Below, in pieces: positions 22,166 to 61,712 of a DNA stretch of 64,000 nt. A program made the translations under genes and the position numbers. The stretch's first letter is position 1. Every line of letters begins with the position of its first letter. The stretch is from Allopontixanthobacter confluentis (GTDB taxonomy: Bacteria > Pseudomonadota > Alphaproteobacteria > Sphingomonadales > Sphingomonadaceae), in NCBI RefSeq assembly GCF_009827615.1, contig NZ_WTYU01000001.1:1323001-1387000 (forward strand), given 5' to 3'. Below the pieces are notes generated by a model. It was not told the DNA's origin and searched no databases. It was given only the letters and a program-made list of their open reading frames with translations.

Positions 22166-22576
22166 TCATGCGGGGCAGCGGCTGTCGCGCATCGGCGGCG
22201 CGGAGGTACGCGTTTGCCATGTGCCATCAGGCGCCTGATATTTTTCCCCCGGCGATGTGCGTGCAATGGCAAGGCACCCTGCGGTCAGGGCATATTCTTC
22301 CAGCGTGGCGTTGGCGGCCTGCGCCTTTTGCGCATAAACCGCCCGGCGCTTGATATTGATGTCATTTACCAGACGGCGAAGTTCAGACGATTCGCTGCCG
22401 ACAATGCCCAGATATCCATCCATCTTTTCGCCCACCGACCCGCTCGAACGGGCTGCATCATAGGCAGGGTCGCGCTGCGCGTGGGCCGCTGTTGCCAGGC
22501 CGCCAATGGCAAGAGTGCCGGCAGCAATGCCCAAGATGGCGCGGCGGATTACAGTGGTATTCATCATTGTTCCCAT
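22166..22576 (-). CDS. ydbL: YdbL family (DUF1318) periplasmic protein
   Basis: 136 residues. A signal peptide (IRRAILGIAAGTLAIGGLATAAHAQ) precedes the DUF1318 core SSGSVGEKMDGYLGIVG...LVNDINIKRRAVYAQKAQ. In Escherichia coli, YdbL is the periplasmic partner of the outer-membrane lipoprotein YnbE and regulates how YnbE assembles with YdbH. The ATG overlaps the ynbE stop (TGATG); starts 9 and 12 bp further in (MMNTT) are equally possible. Confidence 0.88.
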   Translation of the reverse strand: MGTMMNTTVIRRAILGIAAGTLAIGGLATAAHAQRDPAYDAARSSGSVGEKMDGYLGIVGSESSELRRLVNDINIKRRAVYAQKAQAANATLEEYALTAGCLAIARTSPGEKYQAPDGTWQTRTSAPPMRDSRCPA

Positions 22577-22752
22577 CAGAAAATATCTGCGTTTTCTTCA
22601 ATCGTATTGCCTGCATCTTCTGCCAGGCGGTAAATAACTTCCTGCCGGATATTTATGTTCAGTTCGATCACGATCGGCTTGTCCGGCGCGTTGACGCTTA
22701 TGCATCCGCCAAGCATCGCCGCGCCTGCTGCCGCCATCGCCATCGCTGCCAT
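22576..22752 (-). CDS. ynbE: YnbE family outer-membrane lipoprotein
   Basis: A 58-residue lipoprotein. A short signal (MAAMAMAAAGAAM) ends in the lipobox LGGC. The mature part ISVNAPDKPIVIELNINIRQEVI matches the YnbE pattern of a Pro-Ile-beta-strand that pairs end to end and with YdbH to form a bridge. The ATG at 22752 was preferred because GGGAGG sits 4 bp upstream and the length matches the family (about 60); a longer frame from 22887 exists but its first 45 residues are repeat-derived. Confidence 0.88.
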   Translation of the reverse strand: MAAMAMAAAGAAMLGGCISVNAPDKPIVIELNINIRQEVIYRLAEDAGNTIEENADIF

Positions 22753-22758
22753 CCGCCT

Positions 22759-22792
22759 CCCGCTAACCAATGGCCCGCTCACCAATGGCCCG
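22759..22792. repeat. 15-bp tandem repeat before ynbE
   Basis: CCCGCTAACCAATGG (22759-22773) and CCCGCTCACCAATGG (22774-22788) with the start of a third copy. The minus-strand reading would give the pentads GPLVS-GPLVS. It lies in the 149-bp ydbH-ynbE gap, a few bases from the proposed ribosome site of ynbE. Confidence 0.85.
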
Positions 22793-22901
22793 GTTTCCAA
22801 GCACCCATGTCCAATGCCCGAAGTTTCATCCTGCATGGGCAGGAAGGTCGCATTCGGACCCTGCAAGGTCAATCGCGGATTTTTCATGGCACTCTTTCGC
22901 T

Positions 22902-25900
22902 TTATGGATTCTGAACAGAGCTGACGGGCTTGGCGGATGGTCCGTCAGGAATAAGATCGGATGGCGTAATTTGCGGCGGCGGCGCGGTGGTCTGCTGTTT
23001 CAGGCGCGTGCCATTGGCCGACACCAGCCCTAGGTCACGCGGGTCTTTGACAAAGGCAGGGTCATACATCGCCTTCACCGAGGTTATCAGCTGGTAGAAC
23101 GGCGCCCGGATATTGACGCGGAATTGCACCGGCAGATTGGCAATCTGGCGGGTGATGAAATTGTTTTTCGTGCCGGCCCCCTGGCTGACGCCATCAAACC
23201 GGACCCGGGTGACGATTTCGCCCGACAGCGACCCGTCCATGGCAATTTGCATGTCGTCAAAATCAAGGCTGCGAAGCGCGCCGAAAGCGAAATTGGCGAT
23301 TGGTGTCAGGTCTCTGTACGTCAATTCGCCCACATAGGCGAGATTGCCGCCGGGCGGGCGCGAATCCAGCCTGCCGCCTTCAATCCTGCCATTGCCGGCT
23401 TCGTCGAATATAATCGGGATAATACCGTCAAAAACGCCGGTAGCGCTGAGATTGCCCAGTTCCATCTGCGCGATAAATTGCGCCGCATCCAGCCCGGTGA
23501 TTTCGAGCACGTAGGCGCGGGATTCTGCTGTGCCAAGTTTGAGGTTCACCGGTTTCAGCGCCAGCGTCCCGCCCATGAACGGCCATGTTCCACCTGCAAC
23601 AGACAGCATTTGCCCGCCCTGCAGGCTGATGGAAATTTCCCCATCGTTTACTTCAATGCCGGGGTTTAGCGATGCCACCTTGATACGCTGGTCAGGCGCG
23701 GTCGTCAGCCCCAGCAAATCGGTAAAACGCACCGTGCCCGATGCCCCGCGGACCGGCCCGAACGCCGCTGCAAAATCAAGCGAATCGCTGGAAAATACGC
23801 CCGTGCTGGTTACGCCTTGCGAATTCCAGTCGATCCGCCCGGTGCCGGTCACCACGCCTTTGGCATTGGCAATAACGCCGAGCGCCAGCATGCTGAGGTC
23901 TTCCGGCTGCAGCCGGTCATCAAACAGCAGGCCATCAACGGCCAGATTCGCATGGCCCGTCCCGCTGGCCAGGCTGTGGACAATATCCACGCGGGTGACT
24001 TCGCGGTCGCTGCGCGGTTCGCGCAGGACAGCATCCGCGTTGATGATACTGTCTTTCAAGGTCAGCGATGCCCCGCGTGCCTGCATGATTTCAAACCGCT
24101 GATCGGCAGAACGGTCGCGCAGCGTAAAGGATGCGTCCGTAATCGTCAGCACGCCCCCGGAATAGTTCCAGTTGCCGCTGGTATTGCCCAGATCGAGCGG
24201 CACGGCATACAGGCGAACATCAGCATCTGAAAAACTGCCGGCAATGTCCTTGCCGATTCTCGCATCCAGATTGCTGATGACAAAGCGGTTGGCGCTGTCA
24301 TCACGGCCCAGCGTAATATCCAGATTGCGCGCTGTCAGCGCGCCGGGATAGGCAAAGCCGACAGGTCCGCTGGCGATACGGATGGGCGTGCCAGCCAATG
24401 TCCCGGCCAGATCCAGCGTGGGCGCGCCTGCTGCAATACGCAAGCCTGCAGGGCCGCTGCGCACGATGGCCTGACCGCCTGCCGGGCACAGGGTAAGTGC
24501 GCGCCGGTCAAAGGTGAGATTGGCCACCGCCAGCCGGTCAAACCTGATCAGCGTGCATTGGCGCCACAAGGACAAGCCACCCGATGGCGACCAATTGCCT
24601 GACAGCGGCACTTGCAGATTTCGCGCCGAACCGCCCGGCATTGCGCCACTGGCGACCGCTTGCCCGGCAAAGCCGATGGCGCCTGACCGCGCCTGTGATA
24701 CCACGAGTTGCGGGATTGCCAGGCGGCTTTCACCAGCAGCATATTGCGCCATCCGCAGCCTGAAAATGGACTGGCCATTGCCGCTTCTTTCCATCCGCCC
24801 GATGATTTCCGGCAGCCCTGCCCCGCCAGTTGCGATATTGCCAGAAAGGCGCGGTCTGCCGCCGTCAGTCGCCCCCCATTGCACCCGTGACAGGGACAGC
24901 AGCGTAGCCCCGCTGCCGCCGCGCAGCGTGGCTTGGGGAATGTTGGCTGACATGACTGCGCCTGTTTTGCGCACGCGAATGTCTGCGGCCAGCTGGCTGC
25001 CTCTGGCTTCCCGGCGCAGGCTCTCGCGCATTTTCTGGACCAATGGCGCGGCAAAACTGCCGTCGGCAGTAATGGCCATATCCGCCAGCGCACGGTCGAA
25101 TGTGTCCCCCAGCCTTACGCCATTGCCTTCAACCTGTGCGTCAACTTCCACCTGATCAAACATGCCCCGGCCGCGGAGCGAGCCTTTCGCTGTCATTACC
25201 GCAGCGCCCAGTTGCGAAGTATCCACCGCGCCGGCGGCGATTGCAAAGGTTCCATCCAGCGAGTCATTCGCCCATTTGGCGCGCAGGGTGCCGTTCAGGC
25301 CCGCCGTGCGGTTACCCGCGGCAGATGCCGCGCCTGTGGCCAGTTGGCCGCGCCCTTCGAAACGGGAAAACTCTGCATCAGACTTGGCATCCAGCTTCAA
25401 GGCGGCATTGCGCAGTGAAATCCGGCTGTCGGAACAGGTCAGGCGGCCCACCCGCACGGGTCCGGAAAAACGCGGCTTGCCTGATTGGGTAGTGATGGCG
25501 CCATACAAGGACGCATTGGACGCCGCGCAATCGCCAGCTTTGAAGTCCGGCGCAACTGCTGCCAATATCCCGCTGAAGCCGTCATTCAGCCGGCCTTTGC
25601 CCTCCGCTTTCAGTCCGATCGGGCCAAAATCAGTCAGCACCAGCCCGCGTGCGTCCACCAGCGCAAGGTCAAGGTCCGGCAATCCTGCGGGCTGGTCAGT
25701 CTCGCCAAACAGCAGCGGATCCAGCGCGCCGAATGACAAGGTGCCGTTTCGATAGGTTCCATACAGACGCGGCTTCACCGCCGTGACCCGGCCGATTGCA
25801 GGCGTGCCGAAGCGGTATCGCAGGCTGATTTCGACCCGTTCGATGGTCAGATCAGGCTTCGCCGGATCGCCAATCACCAGATTTGAAATAACCTGACGGT

Positions 25901-26162
25901 CGGGCGCTATTTCTTCAATGTCATAAGTGGCAGCAACGCCAAGGCGTTCTAGTTGATCGGCAAGGATATTGTCGGCGATAATCTCACGCGATTGCCAGAT
26001 TGTCAGCGCCGCACCAAAAAGCAGCGCGACCACGGCCAGCAGCACCCGGCCGGCTACGCGCCTGCGCGCACCACTACCCACGCTGCTAACCACGCCTTTA
26101 CGGCGTGCAGAATCGGGCACAGTATCGTCCATAACGGTATTGTTTTCTTCGGCCTGCGCCAT
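22902..26162 (-). CDS. ydbH: YdbH family AsmA-like intermembrane transport protein
   Basis: A very long (1086 residues) inner-membrane-anchored protein. One membrane helix (about residues 33-53; AGRVLLAVVALLFGAALTIW) is followed by a continuous beta-rich periplasmic region typical of the AsmA-like/YdbH group. The family forms long grooved bridges that move phospholipids from the inner to the outer membrane, with partly redundant partners TamB and YhdP in enteric bacteria. The start was chosen at 26162 with GGGAGTGAG upstream. It leads the operon ydbH-ynbE-ydbL. Confidence 0.88.
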   Translation of the reverse strand: MAQAEENNTVMDDTVPDSARRKGVVSSVGSGARRRVAGRVLLAVVALLFGAALTIWQSREIIADNILADQLERLGVAATYDIEEIAPDRQVISNLVIGDPAKPDLTIERVEISLRYRFGTPAIGRVTAVKPRLYGTYRNGTLSFGALDPLLFGETDQPAGLPDLDLALVDARGLVLTDFGPIGLKAEGKGRLNDGFSGILAAVAPDFKAGDCAASNASLYGAITTQSGKPRFSGPVRVGRLTCSDSRISLRNAALKLDAKSDAEFSRFEGRGQLATGAASAAGNRTAGLNGTLRAKWANDSLDGTFAIAAGAVDTSQLGAAVMTAKGSLRGRGMFDQVEVDAQVEGNGVRLGDTFDRALADMAITADGSFAAPLVQKMRESLRREARGSQLAADIRVRKTGAVMSANIPQATLRGGSGATLLSLSRVQWGATDGGRPRLSGNIATGGAGLPEIIGRMERSGNGQSIFRLRMAQYAAGESRLAIPQLVVSQARSGAIGFAGQAVASGAMPGGSARNLQVPLSGNWSPSGGLSLWRQCTLIRFDRLAVANLTFDRRALTLCPAGGQAIVRSGPAGLRIAAGAPTLDLAGTLAGTPIRIASGPVGFAYPGALTARNLDITLGRDDSANRFVISNLDARIGKDIAGSFSDADVRLYAVPLDLGNTSGNWNYSGGVLTITDASFTLRDRSADQRFEIMQARGASLTLKDSIINADAVLREPRSDREVTRVDIVHSLASGTGHANLAVDGLLFDDRLQPEDLSMLALGVIANAKGVVTGTGRIDWNSQGVTSTGVFSSDSLDFAAAFGPVRGASGTVRFTDLLGLTTAPDQRIKVASLNPGIEVNDGEISISLQGGQMLSVAGGTWPFMGGTLALKPVNLKLGTAESRAYVLEITGLDAAQFIAQMELGNLSATGVFDGIIPIIFDEAGNGRIEGGRLDSRPPGGNLAYVGELTYRDLTPIANFAFGALRSLDFDDMQIAMDGSLSGEIVTRVRFDGVSQGAGTKNNFITRQIANLPVQFRVNIRAPFYQLITSVKAMYDPAFVKDPRDLGLVSANGTRLKQQTTAPPPQITPSDLIPDGPSAKPVSSVQNP

Positions 26163-26218
26163 CTCACTCCCACTTGCGCGCACCGCTACCAAAATGCAAT
26201 GCAGGTTTCTGAGAACTG

Positions 26219-53394: not shown

Positions 53395-56046
53395 TTATCC
53401 GCCGATGGCCGCGCGTACTGCCTCAATCGCGGCCTGACCCTGGCTTGCATCCGGACCGCCGCCCTGCGCCATATCGGCCCTGCCGCCGCCGCCCTTGCCG
53501 CCGAGCGTTTCGACGCCGAGCTTCACCAGTTCCACGGCATCGAAACGGCTGACCAGATCATCGGTGACGGCCACGGCGATTGCCGCGCGCCCGTCATTGA
53601 TGGCGACTGCAGCGGCAATGCCTGAACCCATGCGGTTCTTGGCTTCATCCAGCAATGGACGCAGTTCCTTGGGGTTCAACCCGTCAAGCACCTGACCTGA
53701 AAATTTGATACCACTTACATCTTCATCCTGCGGTCCTGCGGCATGGCCGCCACCGCCCAGCGCAAGTTGCTTTCTGGCTTCGGCAAGTTCCTTTTCCAGC
53801 GATTTGCGTTCATCCATCAGCGAGTTGACACGCGCCGGCACATCGTCAGGCGCGGTCTTCATCGATGCAGCGATGGCTTTCAGCGCGTCTTCGCGGGATA
53901 CCAGCCATTGGCGCGCCGCTTCCCCGGTCAACGCTTCGATCCGCCGCACGCCAGAGGAAACAGCACTTTCAGAGATGATCCGCAGCAGCGCGATATCGCC
54001 GGTCGCGTTCACATGCGTGCCGCCGCATAATTCGACCGAGAAATTGCGCCCACCATCATCGGACCGGCCCATGGACAGGACACGCACTTCATCGCCGTAT
54101 TTTTCGCCAAACAAGGCCATCGCGCCAGCTTCGATTGCATCATCCGGGCTCATCAGCCGGGTCGATACAGTCTCGTTGGCACGAATTTCCTCATTCACAT
54201 CGCGTTCGATTGCCGCCAGATCATCTTCCGTCAGCGGCTTGGGGTGCGAAAAGTCGAACCGAAGCCGGTCTTCTGCAACCAAGGACCCTTTCTGCGTAAC
54301 ATGGCCGCCCAGCCTGCGCCGCAGCGCGGAATGCAACAGGTGGGTGGCCGAATGGTTCGCGCGGATACGGTCACGGCGGCCGACATCCACATCAAGATGG
54401 ACTGTATCGCCCACGCTGATTGAACCGGATTTCACAGTGGCATTATGGACGTGCAGCCGGCCCAGCGGCTTGGATGTATCGGTCACGTCAATCTGCAAGC
54501 CTTCAGGCGTGCTGATCGTGCCAACATCACCCGCCTGACCGCCACTTTCGCCATAAAACGGCGTCTGATTGGTCAGCACCAGGACAACATCACCGGCATT
54601 GGCCCGCTCGATTTCGGCACCATCTTTCAGCAAGGCGACAACCCGGCCCTCGCCGCTGGTCGACGTATATCCGGTAAATTCGCTGGCGCCCTCGCGCTCT
54701 GCAATGTCGAACCAGATTTCGCCCGATGCCGCTTCGCCGGAACCTTTCCATGCTGCGCGGGCAGCAGCTTTCTGCCGGTTCATTGCTTCATCAAAGCCCG
54801 CCCGGTCGACGCCAATGCTGCGTGCGCGAAGGGCATCTTCGGTCAGATCATAGGGGAAGCCGAATGTGTCGTAGAGCTTGAATGCGGTTTCACCGTCAAG
54901 CTGGTCGCCCGATGTCATATTGCCAGTCGCATCGTCAAGCAGGCGCAAGCCCTTGTCCAGCGTTTGGCGGAAACGGGTTTCCTCGCGCTCCAGAACTTCT
55001 TCGATCAGGGCCTGTCCGCGCAGCAATTCGGGATAGGCCTGGCCCATCTCGCCGACCAGTGCTGGCACCAGACGGTGCATCAACGGCTCGCTCGCCCCCA
55101 GAAGATGGGCGTGGCGCATGGCGCGGCGCATGATCCGGCGCAGAACATATCCGCGGCCCTCATTCGATGGCAGAACGCCATCAGCCAGCAGGAAACTGGT
55201 GGACCGCAAATGGTCTGCAATAACTCGGTGGCTGGCGCGGTTGTCCCCTTCTGCAGCAACGCCTGTCAGCGATTCCGAAGCGGAAATCAGCGTTCTGAAA
55301 GTGTCCGTATCGTAATTATCGTGCACGCCCTGCATCACCGCGGCAATACGCTCCAGCCCCATTCCGGTATCGATGGATGGTTTTGGCAGTGGTGTCCGCT
55401 CACCGCTGGCGTCCTGCTGGAACTGCATGAAAACGAGGTTCCAGATCTCGATGAAACGGTCCCCGTCTTCATCTGGCGATCCTGGCGGGCCACCGGGAAT
55501 ATGGTCCCCGTGGTCGTAGAATATTTCACTGCACGGGCCGCACGGGCCGGTATCGCCCATCGACCAGAAATTGTCATTGGTAGCGATGCGAATGATGCGT
55601 TCTTCCGGCAGCCCAGCGATTTTCCGCCACAGATCGAACGCTTCGTCATCGGTGTGATAAACCGTGGCGGTCAGCTTGTCGGCCGGCAAACCCCATTCTT
55701 TTGTCAGCAGGTGCCATGCGTGACTGATGGCTTCTTCCTTGAAATAATCGCCAAAGGAAAAGTTGCCCAGCATTTCGAAAAACGTGTGGTGGCGCGCAGT
55801 ATAGCCGACATTATCGAGGTCATTATGCTTGCCCCCGGCGCGCACGCATTTCTGCGAACTGGTGGAGCGCGGTGCTGGCGCTGCTTCCAGTCCGGTAAAG
55901 ATGTTCTTGAAGGGAACCATGCCTGCATTGACGAACATCAATGTCGGGTCATTGTAAGGCACCAGCGGCGCGCTTGGCACCGGAGCATGGCCCTGGCTGG
56001 CGAAATATTCCAGAAACGAACGGCGAATGTCATTGGTCGAAGTCAT
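53395..56046 (-). CDS. alaS: alanyl-tRNA synthetase
   Basis: 883 residues, class II synthetase. Start [30 protein letters not shown]; aminoacylation core with [11 protein letters not shown]. The editing domain zinc site HSATH (in [12 protein letters not shown]) and [11 protein letters not shown] is visible, and a C-terminal coiled coil/C-Ala domain is rich in Gly ([16 protein letters not shown]). I chose the ATG at 56046; the frame stays open to 56082. It converges with the Kef-type gene. Confidence 0.96.
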
Positions 56047-56178
56047 GCCGCAGCAATTAGGCATTCTGCTGCGTTGCGACAAGCGTATTAACCGGGATCC
56101 TGAAAGCGAACCGCTCGATCACGCAAGTGTTTGCAAACCTCGCCCCCTTTCCGGCCCGGTTCGGGACAGGACTGGAGG

Positions 56179-57012
56179 CTATTTCGGCGCATCACCGGTG
56201 CGCGCTGAGACGATCCATGCTGCAGCATCCAATGCCACCATTTGCCCATCACGGTGCTGCACCAGAAATTCGCGCAATTGCTGGATAAAAGCAGCGCGCT
56301 GGGCGTGCTGCAATTGCGCGGCAGCGCGGGCAGCAGGACCAATCTGAAGGAAATAGCCAAGCGCATCTTCGACAGGATCATCCCCTTCCCCTGCAACATA
56401 GGCGTAATTCACCGGCTCGAATGCAACATCCAGCCAGCCAGCGCGGGTCAGCATGGCCGAGACTGCATCACGGTCAGCAAAAGCGAATGGCCCAGGCACC
56501 ATTGCCGCAGGTTCTTCGACCATGCCTTCAGGCAGGAATCTCGTGATCCCGCTCGCCCAGTCATTTTGCGACATATCGCGAAAACAGCTGAAGATGAGGC
56601 GGGCATTAGGCGCCGCGATGCGAGACAGATGCGCGAATGCCTGCACCGGTTCGGGAAAGAACATCACTCCATGGCGCGAAATCAGCAAATCCGGCGTGAA
56701 GCCGTCCCCCGGCCAGGCACCGGCATCTGCAATTTCAAAGTGCGTGTTGGGCAAATTCGCAGCGCGCTCCCTTGCAACATCCACCAGTTCATCGCTGATA
56801 TCGATGCCGCGAATTTGAGCATCCGGAAGCGCGCGGGCAAGCGCGATTGACAATTCGCCTGCGCCGCAGCCAATGTCGAGCATGCATTTTACTGGCCGGG
56901 AAGTAGCCCGTGCAACCAGATGGTCGGTCAGCCCGCCAAAGCTGCGGTCCGTGCGGCGCCATTCGGCGGCCCATTTCTGGCCAACACGGCCCTGCCATTC
57001 ACTCGCCTGCAT
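56179..57012 (-). CDS. class I SAM-dependent methyltransferase
   Basis: 277 residues. The AdoMet loop is CMLDIGCGAGELSIALARALP (residues about 43-63), followed by RGIDISDELVDVARERA and ISRHGVMFFPEPVQAF, the usual methyltransferase-11/25 pattern. The WQGRVGQKWAAEWRRTDRSFGGL start is typical of a small-molecule methyltransferase group. The substrate is unknown. An AAGGA ribosome site precedes the ATG; it lies between recA and alaS, apparently monocistronic. Confidence 0.85.
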   Translation of the reverse strand: MQASEWQGRVGQKWAAEWRRTDRSFGGLTDHLVARATSRPVKCMLDIGCGAGELSIALARALPDAQIRGIDISDELVDVARERAANLPNTHFEIADAGAWPGDGFTPDLLISRHGVMFFPEPVQAFAHLSRIAAPNARLIFSCFRDMSQNDWASGITRFLPEGMVEEPAAMVPGPFAFADRDAVSAMLTRAGWLDVAFEPVNYAYVAGEGDDPVEDALGYFLQIGPAARAAAQLQHAQRAAFIQQLREFLVQHRDGQMVALDAAAWIVSARTGDAPK

Positions 57013-57107
57013 TCAAAATCCTTCGCGTTAGATGATCGCCATCACGCATGACCCGACTGTGCGAAGGCGGGCGCTAAATATCAATTGCGTTTTTGTGCAG
57101 GACAAAA

Positions 57108-57150
57108 GAAAAGCCGGCGTGGATCCGTGAGGATACTCGCGCCGGCTTTC
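57108..57150 (-). terminator. terminator after recA
   Basis: On the minus strand AGCCGGCG and CGCCGGCT pair across a loop of about 18 nt, followed by TTTTCTTTTG. It lies 46 bp after the recA stop codon. Confidence 0.75.
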
Positions 57151-57196
57151 CGTTTTCCCGGATGCCATTCCTGCATCCGCTTGAGAAGAAATAGCG

Positions 57197-58258
57197 TCAG
57201 GCGTCCGCGTCTGGCCCGGCCATCATCTCCTCGGCGACCTTGTCGGTGCGGCTGCGGATCGCAGCTTCCAGCCGGTCGCTAACTTCGGGATTGTCCCTGA
57301 GATATTGCTTTGAATTTTCACGGCCCTGACCAATCCTGATGCTGTCATAGCTGAACCAGGACCCCGATTTTTCAACGATACCCGCCTTGACACCGAGATC
57401 GAGAATCTCGCCCAGCTTGGACACGCCTTCGCCATACATGATGTCGAATTCGACCTGCTTGAACGGCGGAGCAACCTTGTTCTTGACCACTTTGACCCGG
57501 GTGGCATTGCCCACGATCTCATCGCCAGCCTTGATCTGCCCGGTGCGGCGGATATCGAGGCGGACCGAGGCATAGAACTTCAGCGCGTTACCGCCGGTCG
57601 TGGTTTCAGGGTTGCCATACATCACACCAATTTTCATCCGCAACTGGTTGATGAAAATGACCATGGTCTTGGACCGGCTGATGGAACCCGTCAGCTTGCG
57701 CAGGCTCTGCGACATCAGGCGCGCCTGCAGGCCCACGTGGCTGTCGCCCATTTCGCCTTCAATTTCAGCGCGCGGCACCAATGCCGCCACCGAATCGACC
57801 ACCAGAACATCAATCGCGTTGGAGCGGACGAGAGTATCGACGATTTCCAGCGCCTGTTCACCAGTGTCAGGCTGCGAGACAATCAGTTCGTCAATATCGA
57901 CGCCCAATGCCTTGGCATAGACCGGGTCCAGTGCGTGTTCCGCATCCACAAAAGCAGCCGTGCCGCCATTTTTCTGCGCTTCGGCAATGGTGTGCAGCGC
58001 CAGCGTTGTCTTGCCCGAGCTTTCCGGGCCATAAATTTCAATCACCCGGCCACGCGGCAAACCGCCCACGCCGAGCGCAATGTCCAGCCCGAGCGAACCG
58101 GTCGAGATCGTTTCGACCTGCATTGCCGGTTTCTGGCCAAGCTTCATGGCCGACCCCTTGCCATAGGCACGGTCGATCTGGGCCAGTGCTGCATCAAGCG
58201 CCTTCTGACGGTCCACGTTCATTTCTTTACCTTCTACAAGCTTCAGATTTGTTGCCAT
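57197..58258 (-). CDS. recA: recombinase RecA
   Basis: 353 residues. DNA strand exchange and LexA co-protease. Walker A GPESSGKT (about 74-81), Walker [11 protein letters not shown], LexA-cleavage/DNA loops in [27 protein letters not shown] and [17 protein letters not shown]. The C-terminus is acidic (GPDADA). GGAGG precedes the ATG, and a LexA box lies about 90 bp upstream. Confidence 0.98.
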
Positions 58259-58346
58259 GACACGGCCTCCATCAGTTGCCTAGAGGCGGGATGCGTTTGA
58301 CCCCGCTTGTTCCACTGTTGGACCATGTACCGCATTTGTTCTGTTG

Positions 58347-58361
58347 GAACAAGTGTAGAAC
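58347..58361 (-). promoter_or_regulatory. LexA (SOS) box of recA
   Basis: GTTC-TACACTT-GTTC on the minus strand, an exact GTTC-N7-GTTC match, 89 bp upstream of the recA start. Its second half overlaps TTGTTC, which with TACATG 17 bp further could form the -35/-10 of the recA promoter, so bound LexA would occlude RNA polymerase. Confidence 0.85.
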
Positions 58362-58433
58362 ACAATTTTCTTGCACTACGCTATCCAACTGGAAAAATAC
58401 TGAAATTTACACCTGGGTCTGGCCTACCTGATT

Positions 58434-60050
58434 TTACCCTGTCTGGCGCACCTGCCATCGGAGTGTCCGCGTTGACGATGCAGGAATTGTCGCTTCGATG
58501 ACATAGTATCCATCTTTCAGCTTCGCGCCGCTTGCCTTGCGGATTTCCCATTCGGCCGATGCCCCGACGGGTATTCTGACCTTGATGGCATGCGGGTTGG
58601 CGTTACTGATCTGGGTCTGCCTGCTGCGCCATTTGCGGGCAGGCCATTCTCCGCCGTTGCGCTTGGTGCTGCCATTTTCGCAGCGGGAGAATACCTGCGT
58701 GCTGTGACCAAGGACTATTTCGACATCCTGCCCTTCGGCAAAATCCCGCAAATTTTCTTCTCCTACCAGCAGATCGCCGCTGGCTGAGGGTTCGAAGATG
58801 GTGATGCCGCCCATTGGCAAAGCAACGCCCAGCCCGTGCTTCTCGTCATTTTTCGTCGCCAGCAGCATTTGCATCGGGCCATTTGCGCCACTGTCATCAA
58901 AAGGATTGCAGGCAGCGACATAGAGATACTGCCCTTTGACTCCATCGCGCTGGAGAAATGCGACCTGCTTCAGCCCCTTGGCAGCCACGGTCATTCGTTC
59001 CGGCACACGATAGAGCTTGAGATCGCCCAATTGTTCTTCGCTGGCCACCACCGATACCGGCGCTGCTGCATCGAACATTTTGTTCTGAATCCTCGATCCG
59101 GTGACGATGATAGCTTCACTTGCCGCGACCGGAGGAGGAGGCGGTGGCGGCGGAGGAACCGCGCTATAATACAGTTCCGGCGACCCTGCCGCCGTGCTGC
59201 CGATAGGATAGCAGACCAGTTGCAAGGGCTTGCCCGTCGGCGGGTCGGCCAGGCCCTGCAGATCGCTGGTGATTTGCAGCGTGCCAGCCACCGCCATCAG
59301 CTGCGCATTGGCAAAGGTCTGGTCATTATCATTCAGGATTGTCAGCCATGACACCAGATTGATGGAGCTGGCATCACGGTCCTGCGGATCCGGCAGAGTT
59401 GCGACATAATGCGCCTGCCAGTCGAAACCCCACGCCAGATATGTCAATGTTACGCGGTAAGTTCCGCCGGCATTGGACGACGTGTTTACCGAGAATACGG
59501 GATTGGCGGACAGGCCGGCCGGAATTCGGTCAAACGACAGGCCTTCTGCACTGCCGGAACAGCGCACCGCTTCGAAACCGTCACGCGTTTGCAGCACCAG
59601 TCCGCCATCGGCACGGCTCCTGACCACGGCGGACTGGGAGGTTTTCTGCCCATTGGCCGGGTTGGTTCGTGTCAGGGTGACGCGGTTTCCCAAAGTCCCA
59701 TCCACCAGTGCAGCGGGTGAGAGCAGGTCGGCATTGCGGTTTTTCTCAAACGTCCCACCCGGCAGGCCAGTGACAATTGCGCTGACTGCCACCATGCCTT
59801 CTGCCACACCGTCAAAACGGATGGTGGACTGGCCTGCTGGCAACGTCACATCCCGCGTTTCGCTGATCATGGCGAAGCCGCGCGGCCAGCCGCGATCCAT
59901 CTCTGCGCCCGGAAGCCGCTGAGGATCGCGATAAACGGTTACCGACAGGTCGACCGGCGCGGATGCATCCACCGTCTCGCGGCCCATAACTGCTGGCGGC
60001 GCTGATATTGCAGCCAGGCTGATCGAAACGAGAATGGGCGAAAAGCGCAC
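58434..60050 (-). CDS. DUF4139 domain protein with embedded TonB-box-like segment
   Basis: 538 residues starting at a GTG (VRFSPILVSISLAAISAPPA signal peptide), 8 bp after the upstream paralogue's stop; a longer frame reaches 60125. The DUF4139 region is visible as VTLTYLAWGFDWQAHYVATL...INLVSWLTILNDNDQTFANAQL and, at the end, VRIPVGASAEWEIRK. After a run of nine prolines (about 299-307) comes EAIIVTGSRI...APVSVVASEEQL (about 312-341), which reads like the N-terminus of a sphingomonad TonB-dependent receptor plug. The paralogue lacks this insertion. Function unknown. Confidence 0.85.
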   Translation of the reverse strand: MRFSPILVSISLAAISAPPAVMGRETVDASAPVDLSVTVYRDPQRLPGAEMDRGWPRGFAMISETRDVTLPAGQSTIRFDGVAEGMVAVSAIVTGLPGGTFEKNRNADLLSPAALVDGTLGNRVTLTRTNPANGQKTSQSAVVRSRADGGLVLQTRDGFEAVRCSGSAEGLSFDRIPAGLSANPVFSVNTSSNAGGTYRVTLTYLAWGFDWQAHYVATLPDPQDRDASSINLVSWLTILNDNDQTFANAQLMAVAGTLQITSDLQGLADPPTGKPLQLVCYPIGSTAAGSPELYYSAVPPPPPPPPPVAASEAIIVTGSRIQNKMFDAAAPVSVVASEEQLGDLKLYRVPERMTVAAKGLKQVAFLQRDGVKGQYLYVAACNPFDDSGANGPMQMLLATKNDEKHGLGVALPMGGITIFEPSASGDLLVGEENLRDFAEGQDVEIVLGHSTQVFSRCENGSTKRNGGEWPARKWRSRQTQISNANPHAIKVRIPVGASAEWEIRKASGAKLKDGYYVIEATIPASSTRTLRWQVRQTG

Positions 60051-60058
60051 TGCCCGTC

Positions 60059-61630
60059 TCAGTATCGCGCTTCGTAGGTTACGCGAAATTCGCGAGTGCC
60101 ATTGGCAGGCACAGGAACCAACCATTTACGGCGGTCAGTGTTCAATTGCCGGCCGGGCACATCTTCGCTGACTATGCGGTAATCATTACCCCACCACCCG
60201 CGGTCCAGCCCTTGCTGCACCAGATCGACCTCAACTGCGACCGGCTTTGCATTGGTCATGGTGTAACGCATGGTCGTGCGGTAATATTCGGTAGGGCGTT
60301 CAGCTTCCACCTGGCTTACGGAACCGTCTTCGGCAATCACTCGGTAACGTGCGGTTTTCTGCCATTCAGCGCCGGCAATCTTTTCCCGTTTTTCCACCTC
60401 GGCCTGGACATATACGTCGAACGCATCGCCTGTTCTGAGCATCAGCTCGCTACCCACAGGCGTATGGCCAATGCCGCTTTCGCCAATGAATTGCGGTGTG
60501 CCCTGCGCATCGCGCTGGTAAAAACGGACGGTGCCTGCCGGCAATGCATCGCCCAGCCCGGCGCTGCGTGATGTGGCAAAGGACAAGGCGCTGGACACAG
60601 CCTGCGGCCGTTCGTCATTTTGCAGCCAGTCAATGCTGCGCGCATAAACCCGGCGCGCGGCCACGCCCTGCACATCAAGGAAGCTGACCTGCTTGGTCTG
60701 CGCGTTTGCAATCGTGGTGCGTTCAGCGATGGGGTAAAGGTAGAAATCGCCCACCTGTTCGCGGTTGGCAGTTTCTGTTCCGGGCCGCACCATGCCGGGT
60801 GGCGGCGGCGGAGATGGTGGCGCGGCCATCCGGCGGCGGCTGTAATTGCCCGCGTTTGCCTGACCGGGGCTGCCTGCCACCAGCAAGGTGTCCGCATTAT
60901 GAAAAGTGGTGCCTGTATTGTTGGTGAGCGTAACCCACCCCTGCATATCGATGGCGCCTTTGGCTTCATCAAACAGGGCCACATAATCTGCCGACCAGCC
61001 AAGGCCCGGGGTCAGATAGCGGATGGATGCCGGCCGCGTCCCGCTGCGGACAGAATCCACCATGACCGACAGCGTTGGCCGGGCGCGCAGGTTTGGCGGA
61101 ACCCGGTCAAACACGGCCCGCACAGGCAAGCCATCATCGCGCAACACTTCGATCCGGTCGCCAATCTGGACCACGACCCCGCCTGCAGTGGAGAGCACCA
61201 CGGCCCGTTCGCGCGTTTCGGTGCCGGTGGCCGGGTTGGTGCGGACCAGTGTAATGGTCTGCCCAATGGCCTTTTCCATCAGCTTGGTCGGGGTCAGCAG
61301 ATCGAAATCGAAATTCTGCTCGACAATACCGGCACCAGCCGCCGCAAAGCTGAGGGTTTCAGGCCTGATCTGGGCTGACACATCGGGAAATTCGATGCGG
61401 CTGCGGCCCTGTGCAATTGGCAATTGCCGCACATCCTGAACCAGTGCCTGATTGTTGTTGTAAATGGTGACAGACACATCACCCTGGGCAGTGGCATCGG
61501 GGTCGGCAAGCACGGCGGAGGAAGTCTGCGCGGATGCGGCAGAACCCAGCGGAGAGAACAACGGCGAAAACAGCTGCGAAACCATAGTCAAGGCGGCAGC
61601 CGTCCCAGCCAGATATCTGATCCCGATCAT
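60059..61630 (-). CDS. DUF4139 domain protein (paralogue)
   Basis: 523 residues from the ATG at 61630 with GAGGGG 8 bp upstream (61636 would add two). A signal peptide (about residues 1-35) precedes DVSVTIYNNNQALVQDVRQLPIAQGRSRIEFPDV, the DUF4140-like N-terminal strand; IRYLTPGLGWSADYVALFDE; GWVTLTNNTGTTFHNADTLLVAG; a Pro-rich linker; and GDFYLYPIAERTTIANAQTKQVSFL. Exported, probably periplasmic or surface-associated; biochemical function unknown. It is the first of a tandem pair with the next gene. Confidence 0.88.
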   Translation of the reverse strand: MIGIRYLAGTAAALTMVSQLFSPLFSPLGSAASAQTSSAVLADPDATAQGDVSVTIYNNNQALVQDVRQLPIAQGRSRIEFPDVSAQIRPETLSFAAAGAGIVEQNFDFDLLTPTKLMEKAIGQTITLVRTNPATGTETRERAVVLSTAGGVVVQIGDRIEVLRDDGLPVRAVFDRVPPNLRARPTLSVMVDSVRSGTRPASIRYLTPGLGWSADYVALFDEAKGAIDMQGWVTLTNNTGTTFHNADTLLVAGSPGQANAGNYSRRRMAAPPSPPPPPGMVRPGTETANREQVGDFYLYPIAERTTIANAQTKQVSFLDVQGVAARRVYARSIDWLQNDERPQAVSSALSFATSRSAGLGDALPAGTVRFYQRDAQGTPQFIGESGIGHTPVGSELMLRTGDAFDVYVQAEVEKREKIAGAEWQKTARYRVIAEDGSVSQVEAERPTEYYRTTMRYTMTNAKPVAVEVDLVQQGLDRGWWGNDYRIVSEDVPGRQLNTDRRKWLVPVPANGTREFRVTYEARY

Positions 61631-61712
61631 CTCCATTTCCCCTCAAATGCCTGATTAATCCGGCCTGTTACTGGTCGTCTTACCCTTCATACACACTAAT
61701 TGATACAGTATA

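Follow-up and report, generated by a model that had tools for sequence, protein, structure and literature searches.

The feature under study lies towards the end of the window, the whole stretch of 64,000 nucleotides analysed here, in an ORF on the reverse strand (58434-60125, 563 codons counted from the first ATG) that encodes a 563-aa DUF4139-like, putatively exported protein. Comparison with orthologues, several of which have an ATG at this place, indicates the GTG at 60050 (residue 26) as the more probable start. Behind it, inspection of the sequence by eye shows a signal-peptide-like stretch, and the mature protein begins at about 59981 (RETVDAS), about residue 49. Directly upstream, on the same strand, a tandem DUF4139-like paralogue occupies positions 60059-61636. 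As read by eye from the ORFs in the region 53395-61636 of the window (reverse strand), the tandem pair adjoins recA, with alaS near. Elsewhere in the window, at 22166-26192 on the reverse strand, a 1096-aa protein is followed by two smaller ORFs, one lipoprotein-like and the other exported and 136 aa long; the three resemble what is presumably a YdbH-YnbE-YdbL set.

The two beta-rich halves of the protein are joined by a proline-rich linker, running from LVCYPIGS to SEEQL (59028-59219; this and the following features are on the reverse strand), predicted to be disordered and variable among 89 distinct orthologue linkers. It contains, in this order, a tract of nine prolines (59130-59156), the string EAIIVTGSRI (59088-59117), eight residues, and APVSVVASEEQL (59028-59063), similar to a first plug strand; the strand GDLKLYR follows at 59007-59027. 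The IIVT-containing segment behind nine prolines, on which the initial annotation was based, is thus a confirmed observation. Within it, IIVTGSR (59091-59111) is the putative TonB box, so designated on the grounds of conservation, of profile matches and of the four residues IIVT, as found in the tested box of the DdvT receptor (available part of PMC6874591).

In the linker of the paralogue a shorter proline run, SPPPPPGMV, is followed by GDFYLYP, and the box is absent: the annotated lack of the insertion holds. The assignment to DUF4139 is also to be qualified. A Pfam scan of the 563 residues returned no family at E<=1, and so neither a plug nor a barrel domain; PF13598 (DUF4139) is included in this negative result, and the paralogue itself reaches PF13598 only below threshold (27.1 bits, with 31.8 needed). 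The window protein and the paralogue are 36% identical over residues 44-282 (E 8.4e-30), and it is because of this homology, with no Pfam match of its own, that the former is called "DUF4139-like".

An AlphaFold2 model of the mature protein, based on 34 aligned sequences, has a mean pLDDT of 79, with values under 50 for mature residues 256-274 and 284-309. The box, at 291-297, falls within the latter stretch: rather than a buried ordinary strand, it is predicted to be exposed and flexible. The same model was compared with known structures. Foldseek against the PDB gave a single match at E<=0.001, chain 8b6l_O of a translocon-OST entry (E 1.2e-7, probability 0.99), with a TM of 0.13 and an rmsd of 24.6. 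The best VIA match had a Z of 7.8 over 82 residues, and N-terminal parts of M1 aminopeptidases scored about 6-6.7, both in the common range of the tool. None of these fold relatives is convincing, beta-rich domains being the most that may be read from them; the 8b6l_O match could reflect a true, distant kinship of beta domains. Profile searches against PDB sequences returned one match, at E 0.86, for the whole-family profile, and none for the segment profile.

Conservation of the box in orthologues and its absence from other homologues

The search with the window protein covered 298 same-family genomes, with matches at E<=1e-3 in 170. For 16 of them only weak matches were found (E 5.7e-5 or worse); the other 154 contain a strong relative, G052 and G056 possibly holding the paralogue only. 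From the 101 orthologue loci read, three devoid of the downstream anchor were removed (L008 and L057, where the box is visible, and L056, interrupted before the linker), and identical linkers were collapsed, leaving 89 distinct ones. The upstream partner is present in 61 rows of orthologue loci; two orthologues, L014 and L016, feature one in-frame TGA each inside the matched stretch.

The pattern [IVLMF][IVLMT][VL][TS][GA] occurs in 88 of the 89 distinct linkers, whereas 1000 shuffles that preserve composition give 1.0 such linkers on average and never more than 5. The only exception, L076, reads MIAVTGAR and was omitted from the 88-row profile. The core consensus is [DE]x-I-[VIM]-V-T-[GA]-x-R; the strict form [IVM][IV]VT[GA] is found in 61 of the 89 linkers (shuffle mean 0.1), and an R or K stands two or three residues past the five-residue pattern in 87 of the 89. 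Among the 88 rows, the column counts are 79 for I, 85 for V, 85 for T, 88 for G or A and 74 for R, V and T thus being the single residues kept most often; an acid is present at -1 or -2 in 72 rows, and a basic residue (R or K) follows at +6 or +7 in 87. All four valine codons are in use for V and all four threonine codons for T, indicating that it is the protein, not the DNA, that is conserved.

The surroundings of the box behave differently. The seven core residues carry 1.8-4.2 bits of information per site, versus 0.3-1.5 at the 31 flanking positions, and flanks, proline tract and box position vary freely among the 89 distinct linkers. The box may be placed ahead of the proline tract or behind it, depending on the orthologue; the spacing to the next strand ranges from 7 to 34 residues in the 61 strict-form linkers, and a plug-strand-like P[IVLM].[IVLMAT] element is present in 36 of the 88 rows. 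The conserved segment with freely diverging surroundings, named at the outset as what would support a function, is therefore what the orthologues feature. The segment is also found beyond the family, in tandem orthologues from two other families: L199 (DEVVVTGSRI) and L200 (ETIVVTGSRI, with no proline tract). To account for the VTG and VTA states on the tree of the 88 rows, 23 changes or more are needed. When rows are counted naively, VTG-S-hydrophobic and VTA-Q-R appear as linked alternatives (Fisher p 1.6e-5 and 7.8e-6); phylogenetically independent pairs, in a tree test, did not support this linkage, which was dropped.

The homologues of other kinds that were examined are devoid of the box in the linker. 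In the upstream paralogues (61 rows, 3 of which have no readable anchor) it is absent from the 60 residues before the anchor in all 58 readable cases, and the upstream partners of L199 and L200 do not contain it either. A class-level search found a relative in 56 of 337 genomes; in 23 further loci from this level (L201-L223), neither the linker nor the protein body contains the box, and the five-residue pattern is matched only in N-terminal, signal-like stretches, at 4 of the 23 loci. A phylum-level DUF4139 sample, where 64 of 249 genomes matched, was examined at its 30 strongest loci: the box pattern is found in none of these best 30, the looser five-residue pattern occurring by chance in three, one of them within a signal peptide and none with a following R or K.

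Similarity to TonB-dependent receptors and to a second carrier family

When a 41-aa piece of the segment was compared with the whole genome of origin in six frames, the non-self matches were three receptor N-termini (E 4.3e-5, 4.7e-4 and 8.8e-4). The same genome was searched with a profile built from 20 segments, chosen by hand from the rows that have a plug strand, the segment of the window protein among them: its 12 best non-self matches are all receptor N-termini, six of them with E below 1e-3 and the seventh at 0.00103. Eleven of the 12 overlap places of Plug domains, and the remaining one, L186, looks like a protein with a plug. The 87-row profile, built without the window and run on a smaller set of 2481 frames, likewise placed receptors first and the window second. 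Receptor N-termini are thus returned by both profiles. Neither of the outcomes that the initial annotation had named as refuting it was observed. A weak signal of the 87-row profile in a 122-aa frame of the window (E 0.038) was rejected: read by eye, it falls by chance on the signal peptide of a lipoprotein. In the same genome, 15 of the 20 Plug-domain proteins contain [IV][IV]VT[GA] within their first 260 residues.

A tested counterpart is available in the literature. In the DdvT receptor of Sphingobium SYK-6, as described in the available text of PMC6874591, the TonB box is IIVT, identical to the string in the window protein: the single mutants V42A and T43A were impaired, and with both V and T replaced by alanine the mutant was reduced to what is seen when the gene is deleted.

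In the 16 genomes without an orthologue, all 18 matches of the whole protein (E<=1e-3) fall on the linker and span the box. Read by eye, 13 of them are receptor N-termini, three (L233, L235, L236) were not assigned, and two, L226 and L239, are lipoproteins with YfbK_C, vWF_A and VWA domains, exceeding the cut-off for PF12034, PF12450 and VWA. Around these two, 32 vWA loci of the same family (f1) were collected, the remaining 30 being the best matches. The box is found ahead of the vWA domain in 24 out of 32 (shuffle mean 0.5, maximum 4), mostly behind a lipobox-like Cys and at some loci in two copies; as judged by the pattern, it is missing in the other eight, as well as in two further same-family loci, L340 and L341. 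A wider set of 70 vWA loci (L272-L341), scanned from the lipobox Cys, or over 170 residues, up to the anchor, was readable at 64, the anchor being unreadable at six. In the alphaproteobacterial family f5 the pattern is present at three of seven loci, and three more contain near forms, recognized by eye (L302 IVVNGSRI, L306 IGVTGSRI, L308 IAVTGSRA); the DUF4139-like profile also touched an f5 vWA linker independently (G317:C18, E 3.3e-4). The 55 readable loci that remain when the seven of f5 and two of f1 are set aside all belong to other families and served as controls; the box is in none of them. With the 260 residues ahead of the anchor considered instead, the five-residue pattern turns up in three controls (L274, L320, L334), each time in a stretch that resembles a signal peptide and lies at the lipobox or N-terminal to it.

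Some linkers also resemble pieces of the receptor plug. At the vWA locus L250, 53 aa of the linker align with L158, a receptor of the genome of origin, at 64 bits; weaker likeness to receptor plugs is found in the vWA linkers L253 (27 bits, a plug piece without the box) and L302 (24 bits), and L035, from the DUF4139-like family, resembles another receptor type at 19 bits. A further locus, L079, looks receptor-like by eye and was discarded, having no phmmer match to the receptor set. For the four captured linkers, Pfam reports a sub-threshold Plug in L250 (E 0.015) and none in the other three, and the NCBIfam receptor models match L250 at E 0.003-0.15, far below cut-off. The receptor origin of the L250 segment accordingly rests on the pairwise match. 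The 53-aa plug fragment indicates that linkers of this type have taken up the 5' end of a receptor gene in one case at least, that of L250.

Proposed role of the box and known systems

The preferred reading, to which a probability of roughly 0.65 may be assigned on sequence grounds, is that the box would be a functional TonB docking motif in envelope proteins that are not receptors. Its most likely ancestor would be a gene for a TonB-dependent receptor, the 5' end of which was captured into the linker, selection retaining the box while the rest of the plug decays. The DUF4139-like protein would be exported to the periplasm, as suggested by the signal peptide read by eye, and there the flexible linker would display the box. 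The C-terminal domain of TonB may then add the box to its sheet as a strand, as with receptors; such strand addition is described for FhuA in the available part of PMC11658791. TonB might pull the protein and so reshape it, or alter how it contacts the outer membrane or the tandem partner; alternatively, the protein might hold or titrate TonB. A wider proposal, also drawn from sequence comparison and put forward only tentatively, is that in sphingomonads and at least f5 among the other alphaproteobacterial families the Ton motor may have a set of non-receptor clients, including DUF4139-like proteins and YfbK-type vWA lipoproteins, whose boxes would come from receptor 5' ends captured in proline-rich linkers, and may thus act mechanically on the envelope, beyond nutrient uptake, as Tol does.

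The initial annotation had also considered a fossil fusion. As regards origin this idea holds in part, since receptor 5' ends do get captured (L250); lack of function fits poorly. Receptor-gene fragments might keep landing in proline-rich linkers, a functionless box persisting by recurrent capture or gene conversion: captures do exist, at 64 bits over 53 aa in L250 and more weakly in L253, L302 and L035 (27, 24 and 19 bits), and the 23 or more changes of the VTG/VTA state on the tree of 88 agree with such a process. Neutral fragments, however, should decay as a whole, yet the core stays while only 36 of the 88 rows keep a plug-strand-like element, and a clear loss of the core is seen in none of the 89 distinct linkers; a mere passenger is thus rather unlikely. 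Least probable is that the box is an ordinary structural element of the DUF4139 fold, receptor-like by convergence. It does precede a conserved strand, LGDLKLYR, but the variable distance to it (7-34 aa), the predicted disorder, and the linkers without the box in 58 of 58 readable paralogues and 23 of 23 class-level homologues speak for something else, as do the best 30 DUF4139 loci, only three of which match the five-residue pattern, none with the following R/K.

The same string is also found in serpins. The reactive-centre loop of L117, a lipoprotein serpin of the genome of origin (G000:C2:1026507-1027775, reverse strand), contains KIVVTGSRI, and a homologue 78% identical to it KIVVTGSRM. 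When nine serpin loops are compared, L118-L120 included, related strings are present in two more (ITTGSRI, VVTSARI), while the other five differ, L122 being partly alike (VVTSAPI). The 87-row profile also matches serpins, the nearest two with E values of 0.0044 and 0.051, and the serpin occurs in 10 of 119 genomes of the family. Since two serpin loops share the box string, the string can arise for another reason. In the serpins it may be due to chance, may imitate the site of a protease, or may mark a third carrier; the serpin loop was also considered as the key to the box and kept as no more than a side lead. The box could accordingly be the recognition or cleavage site of another periplasmic factor, such as a protease or a chaperone, that also acts on receptor N-termini, as the four serpin loops and the two profile matches would suggest. 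That five of the nine loops read differently, that the serpin is confined to those 10 genomes whereas almost all orthologues have the box, and that the tested role of the string in a sphingomonad is that of a TonB box (available part of PMC6874591) make this a poor candidate, somewhat less probable even than the passenger.

TonB boxes are known from receptors and from imported colicins. To our knowledge, the roles of DUF4139-like and YfbK-type proteins are unknown. In the open-access literature, to which the search was confined, no paper was found linking a TonB box to either; in the available text of PMC12204202, YfbK and TonB-box are mentioned once each, in separate places, the latter about receptors. 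The only non-receptor carriers named in the literature found are colicins (available part of PMC11658791). What we rate as new is the occurrence of a known docking motif in conserved hosts that are not receptors. If docking by TonB is the correct reading, Ton would be a general envelope motor with undescribed clients, and both DUF4139-like and YfbK-type proteins would gain a function open to direct testing. How a short docking motif can spread would also be cleanly illustrated by receptor 5' ends that are captured into disordered linkers.

Among known systems, receptors such as DdvT of Sphingobium SYK-6 and BtuB and FhuA of E. coli share with the window protein an acid, three hydrophobic residues, T, G or A, any residue and R, and a part of the orthologue rows also shows a plug-strand-like stretch after the box; their box, however, is near the mature N-terminus, while that of the window protein is internal, in the linker that joins its two folded halves. 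Colicins such as colicin M (PMC11658791, as far as its available part describes them) are likewise non-receptor proteins with a TonB box in a disordered region, but are imported toxins, whereas the window gene is an envelope gene kept with its tandem partner. The organophosphate hydrolase of Sphingobium is, likewise, a sphingomonad envelope protein, not a receptor, tied to Ton components (PMC7142613, citing Gudla et al. 2019); it is an unrelated protein, and the available text of that source mentions no TonB box for it. TolA/TonB-like force transducers with a vWA fold (available text of PMC12204202) similarly tie a YfbK-like vWA fold to motors of the Ton/Tol type: in that system the transducer itself contains the vWA domain, while here the vWA lipoproteins carry the putative box that a transducer would bind.
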